Positions 4,560 to 51,277 of a stretch of DNA of 64,000 nt are shown piece after piece (within the stretch, counting starts at the first letter, position 1; every line of letters starts with the position of its first letter). This DNA comes from Cephalotus follicularis. Its lineage: Eukaryota; Streptophyta; Magnoliopsida; Oxalidales; Cephalotaceae. Both the position numbers and the translations under genes were made by a program. The DNA is taken from the NCBI GenBank assembly GCA_001972305.1, contig BDDD01000902.1, forward strand, positions 62,001-126,000, read 5' to 3'. Under the pieces are notes generated by a model. The model was not told the origin of the DNA and did not search any database. It saw only the letters and a list, made by a program, of their open reading frames with translations.

Positions 4560-6385
4560 CCCACAATGATGCTCCAAAGCCTTGGTGCTCATTGCCTTGG
4601 TTAGTGGATCTGCTATGTTCTCCTATGAGGAGACCCTCTCAAGCTGAATATCTCCCCTACCAATAATCTCTCAGATCAAATGATAGTGCAACTCGATGTA
4701 TTTGGATCGCTGGTGAGACCGTGGTTCCTTGGCTTGTGCTACAGCCCTATTATTGTCACAGTATATTACAACCAGTCTGCTAATTGTAGGAACAACTCTG
4801 AGTTCAGTGATAAACTTGCATATTCATACACCCTCCTTGGCGGCATTTGAGACTGCTATGTACTCGGCTTCTGTCGTAGAATCCGCTATAGTCCCTTGCA
4901 TCTAATTGCGCCAGCTCACAGCTCCTCCATTAAGTACAAAAATGTATCCAGAGATAGATTTGTGATCATCAGGTTCACTATCAAAACTGGAGTCTATATA
5001 GCCCTCCAATTTTAACTCACTATCATTTTCATAGATCAAGAAGATATCCTGAGTCCTTTTAAGGTACTTCAGGATTCCCTTGACCACTTTCCAGTGCTTC
5101 TCACCGGGATCAGACTGAAATCGGCTTGCCATTCCCAAGGCATGCGCGACATTAGGCCTAGTACATAACATGGCATATATGATCGACCCTACTGTCGAAG
5201 CATAAGGTATCCGACTCATACTTGCTCTCTCTTCAGAAGTCTGTAGAGACATCTTTCGAGAAAGATGAATTCCTTCACTTATTGATAATAGGCCTCTCTT
5301 GGAATTCTCCATGCTAAACATTTTCAACACATTGCTGATGTACTGGTTTTGGGAAAGCCCTAGTAACCTATTGGATTTATCCCTATAGATCCTAATACCC
5401 AGTATATAGGTGGTTTCTCCCAAATCTTTCATGGAAAAGTTCTTAGTCAGCCATATCTTTGCAGACTGCAACATCCCTACATCGTTCCTAATGAGTAGGA
5501 TGTCATCTACATATAGCACTAAGAAAATGATACTAGGTCCCTCTTGCTTTCGATAAACACATGGCTCATATACATTTTTAATGAAGTTAAAAGCTTTGAC
5601 TGCTTCATCAAAACCTAGATTCCAGCTACGCGATGCTTGCTTTAGTCCATAAATGGACCGTTCAAGCTTGCACACCATGTGCCGATGCTCGGTGGATGTA
5701 AACCCCTCGGGTTGGGACATATAGATGTCCTCTTCAAGACGCCCATTTAAGAATGTCGTCTTAACATCAATTTGCCATATCTCATAATCGTAATGAGCGG
5801 CAATCACAAGCAAAATCCGAATGGATTTGAGCATGGCGGCAAGTGAGAATGTCTCAGTATAGTCGATACCATGTCGCTGTCTATACCCTTTCGCCACTAG
5901 TCGAGCTTTATATGTCTCAATCTTTCCATCTACATTCATCTTCTTCTTGATGATCCATTTGCAGCCAATAGGCACTATGCCTTCGGGTGCCTCAACCAAA
6001 TTCCAAACCTGGTGGGAGTACATAGAATTAATTTCAGATTTTATGGCTCCTAGTCACGCCTCGGATTCAATGTCCTGCACTGCCTCCTGATAGCTGGTAG
6101 GCTGTCTTTAACGACGTTGACCTCATCAGTACCATCAATGAGGAAACCATACCTCTCAGGTGCTAATGGGATCCAGCCTGATCTCCTCAAAGGAGCTTTG
6201 CCTAACTGAGATCCATTCTCAGCTTGAGATCCATTCTCAACTTGAGATCCAATCTCAACTGTGTCTGTTGAAGGTCCAACCCATAACTCATCCATTTCCT
6301 GTGTGGTTTCTACTTGTGGAAACTCCTTGAGTTCCACCTGACTCCCACTGTTTCCTTCAAGAAGGTATTTCTTCTTTAGGAACAC
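4560..6385 (-). pseudogene. Ty1/copia reverse transcriptase and RNase H (decayed)
   Basis: The longest open part (4902-6023, 373 residues) is a copia-type reverse transcriptase (RVT_2). It has the KARLVAKGYRQ block, IDVKTTFLNG, IYGLKQASRSW, the catalytic YVDDILL box, and the PYASTVGSIIYAMLCTRP and GYIDSSFDS blocks that lead into RNase H. RNase H continues below 4901 after a stop codon; STTEAEY and CDNN motifs can be read there, with two more stops before the end. The upstream segment 6050-6385 is the low-complexity linker between integrase and reverse transcriptase, with repeated GSQVENGSQAEN-like units. The stops mean the element cannot make its own polyprotein. A TAR- or Tork-like lineage is possible from the RT blocks, but I am not certain. 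Confidence 0.93.
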
Positions 6386-6487
6386 AGCATTTTTTGAAAC
6401 AAATATCCTTTGTTCGCTATGATGGTAGAAATAGTATCCTTTAGTTTATTTTGGACACCCCACAAACCTGGAACTTTCCGATCGCTC

Positions 6488-7340
6488 TTACAGCTTATCT
6501 GCGTCAAGCCTCTTGACATAAGATGAACAGCCCCAAACCTTTAAATGGCTTAGGCTGGGTTTCCTCCCTGACCATACCTGGTATGGAGTCGAAGGTACAG
6601 ATTTTGAAGGAATCTGATTCAAGATATATGCAGCTGTTTCTAGGGCATATCCCCAGAGATAGGTGGGAATGTTAGTAAAAGACATCATAGATCGGACCAT
6701 GTCCAACAAGGTCTGGTTCATCCTTTCGAACACACCATTATGTTGTGGTGTTATAGGAGGTGTCCACTGAGATAGAATTCTGTTATCTCTAAGATAACCT
6801 AGGAATTCAGCTGACAGGTATTCACCACCTCGGTCTGACCGACGTATTTTAATTGGTTTACTAGTTTGCTTTTCTACTTCAAGTCTGAACTCCTTAAATT
6901 TCTCAAATGATTCTGACTTGTGTCTCATCAGATACACATAACCAAATCTAGATAAATCATCGATAAAGGTTATGAAGTAGACATAACCTCCTCGTACACT
7001 GACCGACATAGGACCACATACATCGGTATGGACTAACCCCAATAATTCCATTGTTCTTTCTCCTTACCCGGAGAAGGGAGATTTGGTCATCTTTCCCAAC
7101 AAGCAGGATTCATATGTTGGATAGGACTCCAAGTTTTGGATATCAAGAAGATCATCCTTAACCAATTATTAAAGTCTAGCATCACTAAGATATCTAAGTC
7201 TACAATGCTAAGTATAGGCTTTATTTAACTCAGTTTCTCTTAGTCTTTTCTTATTACTTTGCTCTATTGATAAGATTTTTTATTGTACAGTATTTAAAAC
7301 AAATAATCCATTGTCGATAATACCATTACCAACACAAACA
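6488..7340 (-). pseudogene. Ty1/copia integrase (decayed)
   Basis: Residues of 6488-7051 give the integrase core. They include LVHTDVCGPM, FIDDLSRFGYVYLM, RSDRGGEYLSAEF and the PQHNGVFERMNQTL block, covering the D, D and E positions of the DDE site. The GAG-pre-integrase and zinc-binding part should lie at about 7051-7340. It is broken there by stops and frame changes. Confidence 0.9.
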
Positions 7341-23589: not shown

Positions 23590-24540
23590 ATAATCTCATG
23601 ATAACTATTGTTATAAGAGAACTCAATTAGGGGCAAGTAATCATCCCAACAGCATCCGAAGTCAATGGCACATACCCTAAGCATGTCTTCCAGTGCTTGT
23701 ATGGTTATTTCGGACAAACCATCTATTTTGGGGTGAAAAGCAGTGTTGAAGATCAACTACGTACCCATAGCTATTTGCAGCATCTTTCAAAAACCAGAAG
23801 TGAAACGGCTATCTCTGTCCTAAACTATGCTGACAGTGGCTCCGTGAGCCTTGATTATCTCTTTCATATACAAGCGAGACAATCTATCCATAGAATAAGT
23901 CATCCGAATAGGTATGAAGTGGGCCAACTTCGTGAGCCAATCGACCACAACCCAAATAGCGTCATGTTTGCTACGTGTCAATGGCAATCCAAAAACAAAA
24001 TCCATGGTCAAATGTTCTCACTTCCGCTCGAGAATAAATAAGGGTTGAAGACAACCTGCTGGCCTCTTGTGTTCCGCTTTAGCCTGCTGACAAGTTAGGC
24101 ATCTCGCTATGAACTCTACAATCTCTCGCTTCATACCGTTCCACCAATAGCCGAGTTTAAAGTCTTGATACATCTTTGTACTCCAAGGATGAATGGAGAA
24201 ATGAGATCTATGAGCTTGAGATAAAAGCTCTTCCTTCAACTCGTTATTGGTTGGAACGTATACTCTACCTTGGCACCTCAACAAACCATTGACAGTCCAG
24301 GTGAAATCCGGTTTCAAGTCACCATATATGGTTGTAGCTACTTTCTGCAAGTTTGCATCAGAAAACTGAGCATCTCGGATCCTGTCAAGCAATAACGGCT
24401 GTGCATGAATAAAAGAAAGTGTCATACAAGCCATCCTACGACTCAAGGCATTCGCAACTACATTCTCCTTCCTGGATGATACTCAATATCACAGTTGTAG
24501 TCGCCAAGTAGCTTAAATCGTCTTCTCTGTCTGATGTTCA
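23590..24540 (-). pseudogene. Ty3/gypsy chromovirus-type RNase H end and integrase fragment
   Basis: Read on the minus strand, about 24540-24450 gives the end of an RNase H domain with the typical EYHPGRKENVVANALSRR-like motif. The H2C2 zinc-binding part of the integrase follows (24018-24446: a WWNGMKREI segment and the CxxCQQAKAEHKRPAG motif). The catalytic core is at about 23590-24011, with DFVFGLPLTRSKHDAIWVVV and, further down, a DRDSRFTSGF block. The rest of this element, including gag, protease and reverse transcriptase, is absent. The neighbouring remnant at 24545-28800 is of a different gypsy lineage, so two elements are abutted or nested here. Confidence 0.88.
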
Positions 24541-30635: not shown

Positions 30636-30695
30636 AATATCAGCACCAATTATTTCATCCACCACCTCTTTATTTTGAATAAAATGAAGCCTCTG
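30636..30695 (-). pseudogene. Relic of the thioredoxin-o last coding exon
   Basis: Minus-strand sequence after a TTTTTTTTGCTGCAG acceptor-like motif translates as (QR)LHFIQNKEVVDEIIGADI. This matches the C-terminal strand and helix region of mitochondrial thioredoxin-o (compare TLHFF...EIVGADV in the family). The conserved AVPT before it, with the cis-proline, is not present, and the last about 12 residues after GAD are not continuous. It is in the right order and strand relative to the TRXO second exon at 34589-34660. I regard it as a relic. Confidence 0.55.
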
Positions 30696-33600
30696 CTGCA
30701 GCAAAAAAAAACATCAGCAACTATTTTTTTTTTATTCTTCTGTCTGTGCTTGTGTGTGCACAATCCATGTTGTACAGGCGGGACAGCTAAAGATAATTAC
30801 TCAGGACTGTTCTGTTACATATTAGCGACCATTTGCTTCAAGTGCGTGCACTTATATGGTTAAAATGTCAATAGTCAGTTCGGTTAACTAATTAAAGGGC
30901 AGATGAGTAACTTATAAGCAATGACATTCAAAACCTAGTGAAATTAGAGGAAAAAAATCCGATTAGATAAAACGTACAATAAATTTAATCAACATATAAG
31001 AACTAAAGAAATCGTTAGCAAGGCCCAGACCTCAATATAACTATGTTAATTCCGTTGATCCTCTTTTAGATCATAAACACGCAACAGTATCCTGAACTGT
31101 AAGTTATTAAAAATTATTTCATTTAACATTACATTACACTTCAGATAAGAATACAGTTTATTTTATTTTATTTGCTCCTGAGTACTTATCCATTACATGT
31201 CTTCATTTAGGAAGCAATACTTTCGCAACACTTTCTTTTCATTAAAAACAAACTTCCTGAAGATAGCATATCTTCCCTTACTACCTTGAAAAGCACTCTA
31301 ATAATTTGCTACTTTGTTAACATTAATGAGAAGGATGAATACTGTCGAATGTGACCTCGTTTATTTTAAAAATTGGTCAAAGAAACTGAAAAACAGAAAA
31401 TTGTACGAGGAAGATAGAAAGTTATGTAAACAAAAGGTATATATAGACACAAATAAGCCCTTTGCTTCCAATAGCTATTTATGAACAACAATATTTAAAC
31501 AATTCCAGAAAGGGGGACCAAGTTATCTTACCACGGAGGTAACTTCTAGCTTCCTCCATATGTTTTTAAAGCCTTCCTGCAGATAGATTAAAAAAAAATA
31601 GTTCTAGCAGATTTCTGATGCAAAATTAGTAACTCTACCACAATAAAGAATAGGTAAAATTAAGATATAGAGGAGACAACAATGGATTGAGCTGAGCCAT
31701 CAAGCAGAAAATGAGCTTTATGGGTGCTCATTATCAGACAAATCATCATTCCAAACACGAGCACAAGTTAAATGACTTTGATAGGATGACACCTAGCAGT
31801 ATGCCTACACTTGTTTGTTTTAATCTATCTATATTTTCTTTCGTAACACCTCAACCACTACTTAAGAAACCTTTAACATGTCTTCAGACAATGATGTACC
31901 CAACAGACTAGAGTTACTCAAATTAAGAAACTGAACAGTAGTAAGAAGTATAAGGGGAAGGAGCAGAAGTCTATGAGAGAAAAGATACAAAGAGGAAGGG
32001 AAGAGAAAAACAAATCCTACACAGAGTCTTAGAAAGAAAAAGAAAGAGAGGGATAAAAATTGTGCCAACAGGAATTCGAATATATTTTCCTATCATCGAT
32101 ATTCGTGACACTTCATACAGTTGTAAAACGAAGCATATATATAGGCTTGTTTTCTGGATTCACTAGGAGACCTACGATTTTCGCTGATTGACCATTGTAA
32201 TCAGACTATCAACCCTTTTCGCTCAGAGGGTAGGAATCAGGAATCTTCCCTTTTGCATTTCTTATATAAAAGAAAAAACCATTAACCCTATAAGCATTTA
32301 AAATTAAGGCACTAAATCAAGAAAATTACCTAAAATAGCTCAGACTAGAGCTAAATTAAGAAGATAATTCATGCTCAGGGTAAAAGCAAAACTTCAGTCA
32401 TCATCAGCATCATAAATTGTTTAACTTTTAAATCATATTTGCTAATTACATACATTATAAAGGTGCGATCTGTCTTTCCCACCCTAAATTCTTCCATTCC
32501 ATTCAATTCAGTCACTTCTCCCTAACCCTGAACCAATTAAGATTTGGTATAAAATGTCTAAATACAAACCAACAAATTACATGCATCAATAGCATGCCTC
32601 ATAACAGTCACACTGATTAGAAAAAGACATAGAGTGCGTACATTTAAGTTAGTGAAGCATTTTGCAAGTTCTATGGACAGAGCTAGACCTCCCTCAAGGT
32701 ATTTTTCTCGTTCTATCATATTCCCCTCCTATTTTTGGGGTATCTCTCTCCTGACACCCGATTTACATCATGAACATTGTTTACTTGATTGCAATAACAT
32801 AACAAGAAGGCTTAGAGAACATGAATTACTCATTCAAAGAGGACACCAACAAAATTAAAGTAAAACCAAATAAAGTAAAACATCATAAAGCAAACACTGA
32901 TCAATATTCAGGCCAAAAAAATTGAAAGAAAAATTAAGAAACAATCTCACAAAAATAGAGGGAAGAAATTCTTCTGAGAAGTTCAAATTTGTGCAGGAAG
33001 AACAAAATCTTGATGGACAAAAACAAAAGCAGAAGGCGAAAGAGAGGTGTTTAAAAATTCAAAAACCTTAGTGCTGTCCCACAATTTTCAGTATAGACAA
33101 CCTGTGTTTGTCCTTTGTAAACTTTAGATAATTAAATAAGGCCTTCTAACTCCAGCTAACAAGGACATCATTTGTTAGCAGTCTAGTTTCTTACTCTCAA
33201 TTTATTAAAAGTTTGATAGTATTTTGTATTGGGCTTGGGGATCCAAATAAGTCTGACACTATTCAGCAGGTCCTTAGTCAAGAAGGGTTAAGATTGTCGT
33301 TTTGATGAATCTTTCCACGATACAAAGAACCAAAAACACCTTCCACGAAGAAAAGGGAACAAAATAAGGGTGAAAAATACTAAGAAAAGATATGAAGTGA
33401 AGCAAATACAGGAGTATCGGTCAAGCAAAAGAAAGCTAGGACAACAAATTCCTAAGTTAAACCCCATGATTATTAAAAAGACAGCATTTTCAAAGCGAGC
33501 CATCTCAGTTATTAATATTATAGTACTAGAAATTCTTCCCACTACAATAGTTATATCCAATCTCACACACACATTACACGTTGGTAGAACGCTGATTTCT

Positions 33601-34588
33601 TCAATATATCAGCCACCTCTTTCTCACATCATGCATTGGTCGGTACCTCAGTGGTAGCTGATTTTTCTTATATATATCAGAATAATATGATATTTCAGCT
33701 TTTAGCACCATATGAATAACACAGCTCCTAATCTATGATTGTCTTAAATAGTGTAGATGGTGTGCTTAACACGTATAAGAACATAATTAATTCAACATTA
33801 CCTTACTTGATTCCAATAAAAACCTTGTAATGGATTTAACACAGATATAATTTCATTATGAAAGGTGTCTAAGTGCGTGCATGCATAGAAAAATAAAGGT
33901 AGGACGGAATGTCAACCATTAATTGATGAAATTGATACAACAAAATGCCAAGGAGAATACTCACAAAGTGGATCAAACCCATATCCATCGAAAATGTTAA
34001 TTTTTAGGGAATGAAGATGTATAATTTCGAACCTAAGAAAACTAATCGATCTATAATCAGGGAATGGAGATAAATAACAAACTAAAACAGCTTGATTTAG
34101 TTGAGTTGAGTTTAATAATCAGTAGAACCTCCCTCCCTCTATGTCTTGTCCTATGGGAACAGGTACTTGAAGGAAAAACCAAAAAGCCATGGGGAAAATT
34201 TCTAACTAATCTATCTCAGTCTCTCATTCCAATGCAAACTATGAGATATGGTTAATGAAAGGAGGAAAAAAACTGCCTGCACAAGATGCATGTACCCTAT
34301 TTAGAACAACGATCTTTAAATCATTGGAAGACAAATCACTGAAAGACATACAAAGGACAGAGATCTCCAAAAGCAAAGTGCATTCACTAGGAAATTAATT
34401 CATTTCTAATTAGATTGGGAACTTACAAGGGGCACACCATGGCAGCAATAAAATAGAACATTGCGAGCACACATTACCCTGTACAATTATTTGAACATGA
34501 GAGTAATCAACAATGAGTTTTCTACAAGCTATTTACCAAGACTTTCCCCCTCCCAAACAAAAAGAAAGAAAGAAAGAAAGCAAAACAC
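30696..34588. other. Probable TRXO intron or decayed region; no catalytic exon seen
   Basis: AT-rich with scattered short open frames. I searched by eye on the minus strand for an exon encoding the thioredoxin WCGPC motif and did not find one. A short acceptor-to-donor segment at about 31520-31565 is mentioned under rejected items. The A-tract (AAAGAAAG)n at 34561-34580 is a microsatellite next to the exon donor. Confidence 0.5.
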
Positions 34589-34660
34589 CTTGAATTTTGC
34601 TAAGTGAGCTATTGAACTCTTCTTCTGGCTTGACAAGGACAATGTTGGTTGGATCTGAAA
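34589..34660 (-). CDS. Thioredoxin-o second exon (72 bp)
   Basis: The exon is bounded by TTTCAG at 34661-34666 and a CAAG/GTGTTT donor at 34588. It enters and leaves in phase 1 and encodes VSDPTNIVLVKPEEEF followed by NSSLSKIQ. This is the strand-helix start of mitochondrial thioredoxin-o, which in Arabidopsis TRXO1 reads GVVLVKSEEEFINAMSKAQ. A second TTTCAG six bases further in would give an alternative acceptor in the same frame. It can be joined in frame to either presequence exon copy (donors at 37760/37759 and 35760/35759). Without the downstream catalytic exon a functional thioredoxin is doubtful. Confidence 0.8.
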
Positions 34661-35655
34661 CTGAAACATTGAACTAGCATAAAACCAAATTTTTTGCAAG
34701 GAAATTTCATTTCAAAAAATATAGAGTTCATTGCACCTGAGAACAATAAAAAAAATTCTAATTATGCTAGTAATAAACATATATTTGCATGATCAGTAAC
34801 AGATCAAAACAAAACTGAGAATACTAGCCATATTATTTAAGATGTAACTAGGCTTTAAATAAGCATACAAGCTCACAAGTAGAGTTGTTCTAGAGTCTCG
34901 AGCTCACATATAGAGTTGTTCTTGACTCTATAAGCTAAAACAATAAACAAGCCTAAAATATAATACGTTGTCTGAATGAGCCACAAGGTCCATAAAAACA
35001 AAAATCCACAATTTTGTAGTACAGACTGAGCTTGAGTTCATGATTGTCATGTTTGACCAACAAAACCTGAGCTCGTTAAAAAGTGGCTGATTGAATATTG
35101 AACATTGGAAAGTTCAGCTTGAATCAGCTCATTTTCAACCATAGATTGCACAACAAGATAACGTCCGAAATGCCCAAAAGATAATCTCAGAAATAAAAGT
35201 GTTAGTAATGTGCTTCCCAAAATTGCTATATCTTTGCTAGTAATGTGCATAGCCAAATTATCCTCAATTATCAGTAAATATTACCTTTTCTACTTTTTGT
35301 TTAAGAGAGACATCAAAAAAAAGTAGCTTCCTCATTGTTTTCATTAAATTTTCCATTTTCATCAAAGTTTTGACTACCCCAAGAATCTAACCACTCTAAA
35401 TCCCACCTTGCACACTCTAACAAAGCTAAACCAGTATAAATCAAATCGATACTGTACATAAAGCAAATTCCATAGAAAACGCAAATAAAGTTGTAATAAT
35501 ACAATTGAATAAACTTTTAAGACTAATAGTAGCTTTAATTTCTTAAAGAAATTCAACATATTCAACTTATACTGTTTCCAAACACACACACACACAATGC
35601 TAATAATAGTAAAAAGTAATATAAAATTCATAAAACAACGACAACAAAAAGAGTT

Positions 35656-37964
35656 TCATACGATGAATAGAAAAAACGTATTACTTATGGGATCCTCATT
35701 ATTCAAGACAAAGAAGAAATCAAAATGAAAGAATGAGAAGGGTGTATTTGAAACTTTACCTTTTCCTTCTTCAGACTCCGAGGGTGAGCAGGTGGAGAGG
35801 GTCCTGCGGGATTGTTGAAAAGGGTTTGAAAGGTGATTTTTGTGGGAGAACGGTATTTTGTGAATTGATGAGTGCAATGAGGGTGTCTTTGGCTTTGATT
35901 CCTTTTTCTGACTAAAAGAAACCCAGACTTTAACACCTACGGTTCCATAACTAGTAGGTACTTCGGCATGAGCATAATCGATTTTCTGGTTAAATGAAGT
36001 ACGGGATATTTTTCCGAACTTTCCACATTCAGTTCTAGCTATTTCTGCACCTTGCAATCGACCTGAACAACATATACGAATGCCCTCAACTCCCTTACTC
36101 TTTCCTAATGGAAGATTTCTCACTAGCTGATTAAAAATGGAACGAAATGATCTTTTTTTGTTTCTCAGTTGAAGAGAGATGTCTTGAGCAATCAGAGAAG
36201 CACTTGAATAAACAGATCGGATCTTGACCGACTCAATTACGGTATTAGTACTTGTTCTTTTAGACACCAAAGATTGCATTTTGTTGACTTCATTCAGATA
36301 GGAGTTATACCCGTGTGGAATTCTTCTGTTACTCATTATGATCGCTAACATCAGGCCTGTTCCCTTTATAACTTGTTCCATCCCACTCCCACTAACACTC
36401 TCACCCTTGTTGTCACTGTTGTCGTTGTATATTAATTTGTCTATCAATTCCATAACCCTGTTATCTTTACCCATGAGGTTCCAACATTTGATCCTTAATT
36501 GAGAGAGGAGTTTTTCCCGTGCCTCCTCGGCAAAAGAGACGTTGTTATAAACCCCAAGCCCATCCCTTCCCCTCATAAAGACAGAGGTAGCACCAAAGAA
36601 AGGGAAGAGGGAGACGGTGCTTTTTGTTATTCCTATGGATGAGGAGGGAAGATGATTTGCTAACCTAATGGAGTGACTCAACCTCTTTTTCTCACTGGTG
36701 GAGCTCAAGCTTTCAACTAAAAAAGCAATGCAAGATCGTATTTTCTTATCATCTAAGCTTCTTCCCGGTGGACTGGTTCCACCAGACAGGGACAGGAAAT
36801 GATTGAGAACTAGAACAGGATCAAAATGCATTTCCTTCTTTGTACTCAATAAGTATTGCATGACAAAATAAGTCAAGGAGGGGCACACTCGCTCTTGCCC
36901 TTCAGAGAGGGAGACGGTCCTTTTAAGCATATGATCAGATCCAAAAGACTTGTTTTGGAAAAGAAAGTTGAGTAACTTGGTTTTTCTCAAGGAGTTCACA
37001 TCATTTTCTATTTGGAACTCTTTCGGAAGCTTGAAGATCCTAACTAGTTTAGATAGATTCTTCTCGCTTGACAACGGTGATCGGTCATAGCCAGCCTTCG
37101 TTTCTGTCCGAACCCGGATTCCCTTTCCCATGTCTTGCCCTTCCTTTCCTTCTTGTTTTTCTCCAAGACACCTAATTGGTCGCACTTTCCCAAATGTCCA
37201 CCAACGGCCCATATCCTTCCGGGGCTTGCTTCTTTCCCATCCTTTTGGTTGTCGGGTTCGACGGGGAACAAATAAATGAATGAATGTTCTTTTTGGAAAA
37301 TGTAGAATGGTAGACTTACCCAGACGAAAGCCAGTGGTCTGTCTCGTTGGTGGACGTATTGAACCCAAATAAGATCGAAGAACCACATCCTGATACACTA
37401 ATTCCCCATGAAAATTTAAAGAAAAAATTAGTCAAAGTCATGTCACACACACACACAAAAATCTCTGCAACATATTAATACAGTTATAGTAGTATAATCT
37501 CATGAAAGTTCAACATTAATACTAGCTTAAATTTGTTTCATAAAGATTCAACACATATTAAATAATACATCTGTTATTTAAACTTAAAAAAAGCTAATGG
37601 TAATAATTGTTAAAAACAAAGAATATTAGACAACAACAACAAAAAAATAGTTTCATAACATGTACAGAAAATCAGAAATGATGTGCCAATTCTAAGTTCC
37701 ACATTATTATAAAACCCAAAAAAAAGAGAGGAATGACAAGCGTATTTTTGGAAGTTGACCTTGAGACTCAGAGGGTGAGCAGAGTGTTCGGCGGCAGTGT
37801 TGAAAAGGGTTTATAAACTGACATCTGTCAATTGAAGATGGCGATGACATCATCATATTTGGCTTTGAAGTTAGGGTTTCTACGAAACGTGACGAAGAGT
37901 AAATCCTACCATGATAACAAGATCGCCCAAGAAGAAATGGACGCCAAATCGAATTCCCTCTCAT
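35656..37964 (-). CDS. RPS3: Nuclear-encoded mitochondrial ribosomal protein S3 with TRXO-derived presequence
   Basis: Predicted CDS: exon 1 is 37760-37964 and exon 2 is 37397 down to 35656 (648 residues), if the donor at 35759 is not used. Exon 2 is unmistakably plant mitochondrial S3, a small-subunit protein of the mitochondrial ribosome. It starts [20 protein letters not shown] and includes [48 protein letters not shown] and the C-terminal S3 domain with [20 protein letters not shown] and [11 protein letters not shown]. Mitochondrial S3 exon 1 (MARKGNP...) and its group II intron are absent; a presequence exon replaces them. The acceptor ATTAG/TG is formed from the old leucine-valine codons of S3, preceded by TTTTTTCTTT and a TTTGACTAA branch-like site (37428-37436). 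The native C-terminal end after SQKK is replaced by TRXO presequence-like codons. Alternative: a pseudogene, but 546 codons are open. Confidence 0.85.
35760..35905 (-). other. Exon 1B: truncated TRXO presequence copy fused in frame to RPS3
   Basis: From about 35905 the RPS3 reading frame passes into [16 protein letters not shown], then [22 protein letters not shown], and reaches a strong donor (AAAAG/GTAAAG). This aligns with exon 1A from its SKPN segment to its SESQ end, including [16 protein letters not shown]. The copy lacks the start methionine and first about 35 codons of 1A. Its donor is phase 1 and would splice in frame into the TRXO exon at 34660. The sequence downstream of both donors is also similar, which indicates a segmental duplication. 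Confidence 0.8.
37398..37759 (-). other. Predicted intron between presequence and RPS3 exon (362 bp)
   Basis: Runs from GTCAAC to GAATTAG on the minus strand. Its first about 300 bases are the copied TRXO intron 1 start. Its last about 20 bases still resemble mitochondrial S3 coding sequence (HGEL before VYQD). This shows that the present acceptor was created inside the transferred gene. Confidence 0.65.
37760..37964 (-). CDS. Exon 1A: mitochondrial targeting presequence (TRXO type)
   Basis: The exon starts [15 protein letters not shown] and ends [11 protein letters not shown] plus the first base of the next codon, then AAG/GTCAAC. It is rich in R and S, nearly free of acidic residues until its end, and has a typical import presequence composition. 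The MRGN start and the RRTLCS end match Arabidopsis TRXO1 (MKGN... and ...RRSLCS). I chose ATG 37964 over the in-frame ATG at 38006 for that reason; the upstream 14 codons come from a (GA)n tract. The phase-1 donor fits both the RPS3 exon acceptor at 37397 and the TRXO exon at 34660. The donor (GTCAAC) is weaker than that of copy 1B (GTAAAG). Confidence 0.75.
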
Positions 37965-45781: not shown

Positions 45782-48186
45782 ATGGCCAGAACCAAGCAAA
45801 TCAAAAGATATATTAGGACCCCTAAGGAGGTGGACTGTGCCGTATGAGGGGTCACTGTCGCTGAGCGTCCTCTCGGCATCGAGGAGGACATGGATGCAAC
45901 TGTTGCTGGTACCCCAGATGCTACTGCCACTAAGGTTGGAACCCAGGTTTTCAGAGCCTCCTTTGACAAAAGTGTGCTTCGTCCTGGAAAAATGGAGGAA
46001 CTGGCGAAGAAGTACTGCTTCCCGAGGAGCCTAGAATACTCACTTCCTCGGGATCCCAATGAGGTCACAGAGAACAAACCTGGCCTCTTTGTGGTGTTCT
46101 TGGATGCTTTAGAGCATGGTCTGAGGCTTCCCTCACCTTCATTCACCATAGCAATTTTGAGGCACTACCAAATCCACCCTTTGATACTTCAAGCTCAATC
46201 CTGGGGCTTCATCATCGGTTCCCTGGTGAGGTGCTTGGAGATGGGGGTGACCGCAACGGTTAGACTACTCAGAGAGTTCCACTCCGTCAATGCTTCCCAG
46301 GCAAGCGCGATTTTTACTTCAAGTCACGCGTTAGCCAGGCCAAGAAGCTATTGGTGGAACCTACCAAATCCGTCAAGGGTTGGAGGGGGAGGTATTTCAT
46401 CGTTAGGAACCTCCTCGGCTTCACTCCCTGCCCGTGGTGCGATACATTGGACACACAACGCCTCAATCAGAGGACAACTTTGTCCGAGGCTGAGACAGCC
46501 GATCTGGTGAAACTTTCAGCACTGGCTCCAAAGGAGGTGAACTCCATTGTATGGGAGGATCGCTTGCGCCAGGTCGGGCTGAGCATGTCCTCTGGTCGGT
46601 GGGATCGCTTGGACGAGTAAGAGCAGGAGGTCCATGAGCGGACAGAGAGAGAGAGGGTTCAAGATGCCCGAGATGAACCTGGGTCCGCGACTGTTAACGA
46701 GGGGGAGAGCTATATTAAGCCTTCCTCTGGATATAATTCCTTCGTTTCTTTTTTATTTAAAATTTTGAATCTTGACATATTTCTAACTTCTTCTTTGTGA
46801 TTTCGTGCAGCGATGAACTATTGATGTCATAAGGGCTGTTCGGGAGCAAGCAAGGGTCACTTCTGAGGAGGAGAGACGAAAGGCTCTTCAAAAAGCTGAT
46901 GTTGCTAAGGAGAAGAGAGCAGCGAATGAGGCCGCTGCTAAGGCCGCCGAGGCTGAGGCTAGGGCTGCTGTTGAGGCCAAGGCTGCGGAGGCCAAGGCCA
47001 GGGTTGTCGCTGAGGCCACCAGGGTTGAGATTGCTCGGGGAAAAAAGAAAGCCCAAGATCCTCCACCCCGTCCCTCCAAAAAACAGAGGATGACAGACAA
47101 AGGAAGTGCTTCTCGGGAAGGTGCTCCCGAGGTGAGCCCTCAAGAACCTACCTGCCCTGATGCACCCGAGGAGCTCAGCATGGTGAGATTAATTCTTGAA
47201 GAGCTCGGCAACACCGGTGTCAGCTTAAGAACGCCGGGGGTTACAATCAAGCTTGGTAGGTCGGGCCTTTTTCCTCCCGAGATAGAAGCGAGGCAGAACT
47301 GGACTGTCGACCAGATGTGGATCCATCTCTTCCAGAGCACCTTCAGGGTTTGTAATCTTCCTTTAAATTTTCCACTTAAGCAAATTCTTTGCTCCTCCTT
47401 TGATCTTGGATTTTTCTTCTCCAGGCTATGGGCGACGCCTACCTTTTGCTTCAGAGTGCTAAAGAGGACTATGCACTGTTGGGGCAGCTTCAAGCAAAAA
47501 ATGTGGAGCTGAGGAAGTCATCATACGAGGCTCGTGCCCGGTTGAAGGAGGTGCTCGGGGCCCAGGAGTCTATCCTGGGGGAGAAAAGGCAGGGTGTTAA
47601 AGCTCTAGCAAAGGAGACATGGGATAAGGACCTGTCCGTTCGCTATAACATAAAGCTCCAGGATCATTTGAAGGTCATGGAAGAGAGGCTCTCAAAGTTG
47701 TAGGAGATAGAGGTTGCTCGTACTTGCGAGGCAGTGGATAAGGCTCTTGTAGAATTCAAAGTTTCGGCTGAATTCCAAGGTGCCCTATCCAAAGCCATGG
47801 ATGACTTTAGGGCTTCCGAAGGTTTTACTAAAGAAGTCCTCAAGGAATCTGCGGCACTTTATCGCCAGAGATTTTACACTTGCCGTAACTTGGTCGGCTG
47901 TCATCCCGAGCTTCCCCTAGACTCTATTATTTGTGTCCCAGTAGTAATTGAGTTCGACTTCTTTCCTGATGAGGTTGATAAATCAGAAGAAAAAGCTCTT
48001 CAAGCCTACGAGGAAGAACAACGTTATGCTCAGGGATCCGAGGAACCTCCTGTGGTAGATCTTCCAGGCGATATGGTCCCTTACACTGACCCTGCTGAGG
48101 ATCCCAATTTTGTGCCTTTGGCTGAGGACCCTCCAATTCCCCCTTCTCCAATTGTACATAACATCCCTTCAGGGGATGAATCTTAG
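45782..48186 (+). pseudogene. Antisense accessory gag-like gene of the Tat element
   Basis: Homologue of the gene at 19872-22057. It starts MARTKQIKRYIRTP at 45782 and has an in-frame TGA at about 45847. It then reads FVVFLDALEHGLRLPSPSFT and QAQSWGFIIGSLVRCLEM. A frameshift near 46300 separates this from 46351-46620 (GWRGRYFIVRNLLGFTPCPW). After a presumed intron (about 46735-46810) comes the coiled-coil exon (about 46811-47348) and a second intron (GTTTGTAATC...CTCCAG, about 47349-47424). The last exon (to 48186) has one stop at 47701 and an acidic, proline-rich C-terminus. Some grass Tat elements such as Grande also carry an antisense gene between pol and the 3' LTR. Confidence 0.78.
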
Positions 48187-50540: not shown

Positions 50541-51277
50541 CTAGCACTGTTCGATTTTTTTTTCTAATTCCTCCGCTGTTGCTAGTTTTGACAATTGGTC
50601 TACTCGGGTGTTCTCTGCTCTGGGCACTTTTAAAACTTTGAATACTCGGAAAGCCGACTTCAAACTCTGAACATGTGCTAAGTATTTAGCCATTGAGTCT
50701 TCTCTAGCTTCATATTCTTCACTTACCAGACCAACCACCAGCTGAGAATCATTAGAGGTTTCTATTTTTTGAACATCTAAGTGCTTTGCAATTGTCAGGT
50801 CGACGATCAAAGCTTCCCATTCTGCTTCATTATTTGTTGCTTTGAACCCAAATCTTAGAGCATACTCCAAGATCCACCCATCTGGACTAGTTAACACCAA
50901 ACCTGCTCCATTCCCGGAGATGCAGGATGAGCCATCAACAGACAACTTCCATAATCCCCTCTCTTCTTCTAGGGAGTCTTCTTCCATACACTCCGTAAGT
51001 GTATTGTCTCCAACAAAATCGGCCAAGACCTGTGATTTTATTGTTGGTCTGGCCTTAAATTTCACATCATATTCGTCCAACTCGACAAATCACTTGACTA
51101 GTCTTCCTGACGTGTCTGACTTCGCTAGCACCTGCCTAAGTGCCTTGTCGGTCAAAACCTTGATTGTGTGGGCTTGAAAATACGGCATCAACTTCCTCGC
51201 CGCAATAATCAGAGTATATGCATACTTCTCTACCTCTGGATACCTCTCATCAGCGTCATTCAAAGCATTGCTTACAT
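50541..51277 (-). pseudogene. Tat RNase H (decayed)
   Basis: 50541-51080 reads YDVKFKARPTIKSQVLADF, then LSVDGSSCISGNGAGLVL with the first catalytic aspartate, then TNNEAEWEALIVDL with the glutamate, and the SDSQ-equivalent NDSQLVVG. It is split from the connecting domain (51090-51277, SNALNDADERYPEVEKYAY) by a stop at about 51081. The solo LTR at 51278 interrupts the protein directly after the VSNAL codons. Confidence 0.88.

Follow-up and report, generated by a model that had tools for sequence, protein, structure and literature searches.

Introduction

The nearest architecture known to us is that of rps14 in grasses, which lies within an intron of sdh2 (SDHB) and, according to the accessible text of the report, is expressed by splicing to the presequence exon of its host, with both proteins produced through alternative splicing (PMC1543663). 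Borrowed presequences are also described, in the excerpts available of two further reports, for sdh3 of Rhazya, which carries part of hsp22, and for rps genes and sdh3 of gymnosperms, where the transferred genes have T at most editing sites (PMC4045975, PMC8317393). As for rps3 itself, the nucleus of Gossypium arboreum contains a 544-bp part of exon 2 together with 755 bp of flanking mtDNA, approximately 97% identical (PMC4603758, accessible portion), and the mitochondrial rps3 of Silene conica, as far as the available text goes, has apparently lost exon 1 and bears large indels, with peptides detected (PMC13308715). Adams et al. detected only a small number of rps3 losses from the mtDNA of angiosperms (cited in an excerpt of PMC5435185); mitochondrial rps3 is lost in Zostera, in a source whose accessible part does not name a nuclear rps3. 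Our literature search, which covered few subscription journals and several reports in part, yielded no angiosperm with a functional nuclear rps3, but only an apparently inactive insertion and the mtDNA losses.

We describe here a nuclear locus of Cephalotus follicularis in which an rps3 coding frame is embedded in a gene for thioredoxin-o (TRXO), and we consider whether it represents a functional gene transfer.

Structure of the locus

The window, by which we mean the whole 64-kb stretch of DNA analyzed, has a nuclear setting: a contig of 311,769 bp with a gene for an LRR receptor kinase and retroelement domains, and GT-AG introns at the locus. The retroelement fragments in the window (RVT_2 reverse transcriptase, integrase, gypsy-type) are at 4902-7063, 24018-24482 and 50541-51089 on the minus strand, and at 45848-46510 on the plus strand. 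The receptor kinase gene is located upstream of the RPS3 locus on the same strand; the original prediction had placed here an ordinary nuclear gene, BAM3, and the kind of gene is borne out, while the name BAM3 comes from no search in this study. Rfam at gathering thresholds gave 0 matches in the window, and a scan for viral contigs matched 13 stretches with 0 relatives.

Spliced on the minus strand as 37964-37760, 37397-35760, 34660-34589 and 31576 onward, the locus encodes a product that is letter-for-letter the 641-aa NCBI protein of Cephalotus follicularis; with the S3 frame as protein query, a 641-residue protein of this species is recovered with 100% identity over 98% of the query. The junction 37760/37397, between the TRXO presequence exon and the RPS3 exon, is GT-AG with matching phases and is used by the NCBI model; spliceosomal signals at the S3 exon had been noted in the original prediction. 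The donor of the intron at this junction (at 37759) is GTCAAC, departing from the usual GTAAGT consensus. The middle exon does consist of 546 open codons between TRXO flanks, as predicted, with the correction that only about 499 of these are RPS3 and the 47 at its end derive from TRXO exon 1. The features of the locus, all on the minus strand, are as follows.

37760-37964, minus: exon 1A, the TRXO presequence exon, which has the start codon and comprises 68 codons and one further base; first exon of the NCBI 641-aa protein; alignable with precursors of TRXO (beginning MRGN..., ending RRTLCS).
37398-37759, minus: intron 1A (GTCAAC...AATTAG), its 5' part TRXO-derived and alignable with intron 1B, its terminal AG within captured rps3 sequence; rps3 homology from 37415.
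35902-37397, minus: coding part of RPS3 (uS3m), from mitochondrial exon 2, lacking the native N-terminus and approximately the last ten residues; identified by domain, uS3m and mtDNA comparisons.
35760-35901, minus: exon 1B, a partial second copy of TRXO exon 1, forming an in-frame tail behind RPS3; it starts at 35898 and is homologous to the part of exon 1A that begins at 37868.
34661-35759, minus: intron 1B of TRXO, its 5' part homologous to intron 1A.
34589-34660, minus: TRXO exon 2 (VSDPTNIVLVKPEEEFNSSLSKIQ), intact; score 54 versus a null maximum of 33; part of the NCBI 641-aa protein.
34425-34478, minus: remnant of TRXO exon 3, whose second codon is TAA and in which a single extra base precedes WCAPC; from the frameshift-tolerant search with 4 TRXO probes and the spliced reading.
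31532-31576, minus: TRXO exon 5-like remnant, scoring higher than every shuffle with 3 of 4 probes (29 versus 31 in the first test); the NCBI model reads into it in a different frame and terminates there (GRL*).
30636-30695, minus: TRXO exon 6-like remnant (LHFIQNKEVVDEIIGADI), scoring higher than every shuffle with 4 of 4 probes.

Identity and constraint of the RPS3 frame

The open frame at 35656-37431 (minus) matches Ribosomal_S3_C (E = 1.4e-19) and the uS3m chains of plant mitoribosomes (best E = 5.1e-138), the match running along plant uS3m. For comparison at the DNA level we used two plant-type mtDNA rps3 loci, L001 and L002, both from Frankia genome records, which, judging by the names of the strains, we take to be mtDNA of the host plants Coriaria and Datisca. 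These two Frankia assemblies hold plant-type mitochondrial rps3-rpl16 DNA, apparently as host contamination, and in the protein tree L001 and L002 cluster together, next to Carya.

Over 479 aligned codons the nuclear RPS3 is 63% and 64% identical to L001 and L002; differences from L001 at codon positions 1, 2 and 3 number 105, 90 and 129, and the protein alignment contains 18 runs of gaps with L001 and 17 with L002, one of them terminal. Both NG86 and YN00 give dN of 0.23-0.24 and dS of 0.39-0.42 between the nuclear and mitochondrial sequences, and over three methods dN/dS is 0.54-0.62, only moderately below 1; between L001 and L002, on very few changes, it is near 1.1. When the same 324 substitutions were placed at random in 2000 neutral simulations, not one run retained an open frame (mean 11.6 stops, minimum 1), and the observed amino-acid identity (0.626) was above the maximum of the simulations (0.622). 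The open RPS3 frame is more than chance. Taken together with dN/dS, the absence of open frames among the simulations indicates that selection, at moderate constraint, kept the frame open for a large part of its time in the nucleus.

The divergence is also evident in a tree of 37 rows (34 of the 119 other homologues listed, the two mtDNA loci and the nuclear copy), in which the nuclear branch has a length of 0.97 versus a median of 0.055 for end branches; this tree gave no placement for the long branch. An AlphaFold2 model of the 641-aa protein, for which 23 of the 119 further homologues listed served as input, contained no confident fold (mean pLDDT 34.5).

Limits of the captured piece and its template

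When the window was searched by BLAST with the two mtDNA loci, both of which include rps3 exon 2, intron and rpl16, and L001 also exon 1, homology was confined to rps3 exon 2, from 37415 on (position 3008 of L001). This position is the start of exon 2, the boundary being placed from the protein reading. There was no homology in the window to rps3 exon 1, to the group II intron or to rpl16, as the original prediction had it when it noted the lack of rpl16, of a group II intron and of other mitochondrial sequence; with no flanking mtDNA at RPS3, a simple insertion of mtDNA is judged unlikely. An end-anchored test directly upstream of exon 2, which does not separate a spliced from an unspliced template, detected remnants of neither exon 1 nor the group II intron. 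The N-terminal segment MARKGNPIxVRL, encoded by exon 1, is missing from the nuclear RPS3, and at the other limit the protein ends approximately ten residues short of the native end and reads in frame into TRXO exon 1 at 35901.

Candidate editing sites were derived not from editing data but from positions at which the amino acid varies among the 119 further homologues listed, and were kept if both mtDNAs have C and none of the three sequences has a gap; this removed, among others, a site at which L002 alone has C. When the alternative state had to be present in 10% or more of the proteins, the nuclear copy has T at 7 of 10 candidates versus 11 of 156 other sites; at a threshold of 2% the figures are 8 of 21 versus 10 of 145. 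The signal resides in the second codon position (7/7 candidates versus 4/83 other second-position sites), while all three first-position candidates (T at 0/3) keep C, one of them an R-to-C site. This pattern favors an edited RNA template or selection toward edited residues after transfer as DNA; because the three first-position sites keep C, an edited template is unproven. The comparison of editing sites suggested by the original prediction, carried out here on inferred sites, gives T at the second-position candidates and C at the first-position ones.

Other rps3 and rpl16 sequences in the assembly

The genome searched is an assembly of 1.58 Gb in 9746 contigs. The RPS3 protein recovered from it the RPS3 locus and one other, a fragment (L004:1498-1815, C263) that presumably reads as plastid-type rps3. 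With the DNA of rps3 exon 2 and rpl16 as queries we found the RPS3 locus, a diverged RPL16 gene elsewhere, and three short rps3 pieces (L009:1339-1376 and 1501-1547, on C180; L008:1501-1574, on C152). On C180, two overlapping rps3 pieces are in inverted orientation about 125 bases apart. The RPL16 gene (L006:1508-2092; C1518:213373-213738) is nuclear and has an N-terminal extension (MSLRRLLLPSLQ...); compared with the mtDNA of L002 over 125 codons it has dN of about 0.18-0.19 and dS of 1.1-1.3, and is a constrained gene whose relocation is apparently older than that of RPS3.

No mitochondrial rps3 was found in the assembly; the COX1 family, used as a control, is likewise represented only by three fragments (L011, L012 and L013, covering 84, 37 and 34 model positions). 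Since COX1 occurs only as fragments, the assembly is apparently without mtDNA, and the absence of mitochondrial rps3 from it is uninformative. Among the papers listed in our literature search there was none on a mitogenome of Cephalotus or of other Oxalidales.

The apparent lack of mtDNA in the assembly leaves room for a state in which the nuclear gene is expressed while an intact mitochondrial rps3 is still the main or a second source of uS3m, and the grass rps14 exemplifies how long expressed mitochondrial remnants can outlast a transfer (PMC1543663, accessible text). A dS near 0.4 with an open frame would, however, imply long retention beside a gene that makes the nuclear copy redundant, and we regard such a dual state as unlikely. 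A still smaller probability is assigned to an ageing NUMT, open by chance or deprived of its function only recently: the moderate dN/dS, the missing N-terminus and the further short rps3 pieces in the genome are what such an insertion might display, but the neutral simulations never left the frame open, the splice to the presequence is phase-matched, and mtDNA flanks are absent.

The TRXO host

Exon 1A aligns with the TRXO precursors of other eudicots, and D and E are absent from the first 28 residues that it encodes; it is a putative mitochondrial targeting presequence. From 37868 on, exon 1A and intron 1A align with exon 1B and intron 1B with a score of 316, versus a maximum of 240 in 100 shuffles, the distance between the two copies being 0.27 for the exon (106 columns) and 0.48 for the intron (291 columns). 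Most simply, exon 1 and intron 1 of TRXO would have undergone a partial tandem duplication, and rps3 would have been captured where the copies join. From one joint event, the expected distance between the introns is twice the dS of RPS3 (dS being about 0.4); because the observed 0.48 is below this expectation, a later duplication, or gene conversion, may have occurred.

Downstream of the intact exon 2, TRXO exon 3 reads CAA GGG TAA TGT GTG CTC GCA ATG TTC TAT TTT ATT GCT GCC, with an extra base before the WC.PC motif; the active-site motif, WCAPC (compare WCGPC), is out of frame and behind the stop. The remnants were located with four real TRXO proteins as probes, allowing one frameshift, with 15 shuffles each. 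The exon 3 remnant is the best place for all four probes and exceeds the shuffle maximum for three; exon 4 was not detected with any of the four in this frameshift-tolerant search. In an earlier, weaker test the scores had been 36 for exon 3 (null maximum 38), 29 for exon 5 (31) and 42 for exon 6 (35), the last to be read against a stop-bearing chance match of 43. Splice forms with and without RPS3 both stop just after exon 2, the RPS3-skipping product having 93 residues and no thioredoxin domain. The lesions of exon 3 and the early stops therefore leave no thioredoxin to be made from the recognized exons, and RPS3 carries a TRXO-derived tail. On its sequence, the TRXO of this locus is a pseudogene.

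A TRXO paralogue was sought with pieces of the window in a protein search, which returned 11 candidates, none significant, and with a composite query that matched 267 proteins; no Cephalotus name appears among the 120 matches listed, which is no proof of absence.

A shared gene that yields both TRXO and RPS3 through alternative splicing, as in rps14/sdh2, is conceivable inasmuch as exons 1A, RPS3/1B and 2 are phase-compatible and skipping is possible; it is very improbable given the stop and frameshift in exon 3 and the end of the skipping product at 93 residues. An assembly chimera of mitochondrial and nuclear DNA, which a draft assembly might contain, can practically be dismissed, because misjoined mtDNA is expected to be near-identical while the RPS3 part reaches no more than 74-80% identity with mtDNA, and it continues in frame into TRXO.

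Proposed relocation of rps3

The best explanation, to which we assign a probability of roughly 0.7, is a functional relocation of rps3 to the nucleus that consumed a copy of TRXO. According to this model, exon 1 and intron 1 of a TRXO gene would have been partly duplicated in tandem, and mitochondrial rps3 sequence from exon 2 on would have been captured where the copies join. Expression would be driven by the TRXO promoter together with exon 1A, the latter being spliced to RPS3 by means of an AG inside the captured sequence, and the TRXO presequence would import the precursor and then be cleaved. The resulting RPS3 would lack its native N-terminus and bear a tail from TRXO that ends just after exon 2; the body of TRXO is now a pseudogene. 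While the fused structure, the open constrained frame and the damage to TRXO are read from the DNA itself, we infer transcription, import, cleavage, assembly into the mitoribosome and the loss of mitochondrial rps3.

Relocation is supported by the RPL16 of the same genome, which is also nuclear, diverged and extended at its N-terminus, and by the mitochondrial Rps3 of Silene conica, which, in the available text, still yields peptides without exon 1 (PMC13308715). The missing exon-1 N-terminal segment, the moderate dN/dS, the GTCAAC donor and the distance of 0.48 between the A and B introns count against it. The original prediction of a nuclear copy of mitochondrial rps3, with a frame kept open by selection and workable splicing behind the TRXO presequence exon, is upheld; its account of a gene transfer behind a TRXO presequence holds in part, having overlooked that exon 1 and intron 1 of TRXO are partly duplicated.

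We suggest only tentatively, at somewhat less than even odds, that the relocation of rps3 is complete, so that the mitoribosome uses a uS3m without the conserved N-terminus and with a thioredoxin-derived tail, and that a single repair event copied part of the exon and of the intron of the host, at the cost of TRXO. If the gene works, a large and fast-evolving RPS3 would be importable, and a nuclear rps3 would be a test of which uS3m regions can be dispensed with. Host presequence flanks the guest at either end, an arrangement that suggests capture by DNA-end repair with partial tandem duplication, and the dead TRXO would exemplify a possible cost of such capture.

Comparison with known systems

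Neither this gene, nor this donor, nor this architecture was found described, while the general kind is known; a combination of RPS3 with TRXO, of which the original prediction knew no description, did not turn up in the literature search either. Like the Gossypium arboreum insertion, the locus places mitochondrial rps3 DNA in a plant nucleus, but for that insertion no presequence or function is described in the accessible part of the report (PMC4603758). With Silene conica it shares an RPS3 without exon 1, in a gene that there is still mitochondrially encoded (PMC13308715, available text). The transfers of Rhazya and the gymnosperms resemble that of Cephalotus RPS3 in taking presequences from existing nuclear genes, but involve other genes and donors, and in the excerpts at hand rps3 is not named among the transferred genes.

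The likeness is closest to rps14/sdh2 of grasses as set out in the accessible text: a gene for a mitochondrial ribosomal protein has been inserted downstream of the presequence exon of a nuclear gene whose own product is a mitochondrial protein. The predicted resemblance to the cereal rps14/SDHB arrangement, with other partners, is thus sound as regards the capture of a presequence exon, but does not extend to a live TRXO partner, given the lesions in exon 3 and the undetectable exon 4. In the grasses the host works; in Cephalotus TRXO is broken, its exon 1 is partly duplicated, and the second copy has become the tail of the ribosomal protein.
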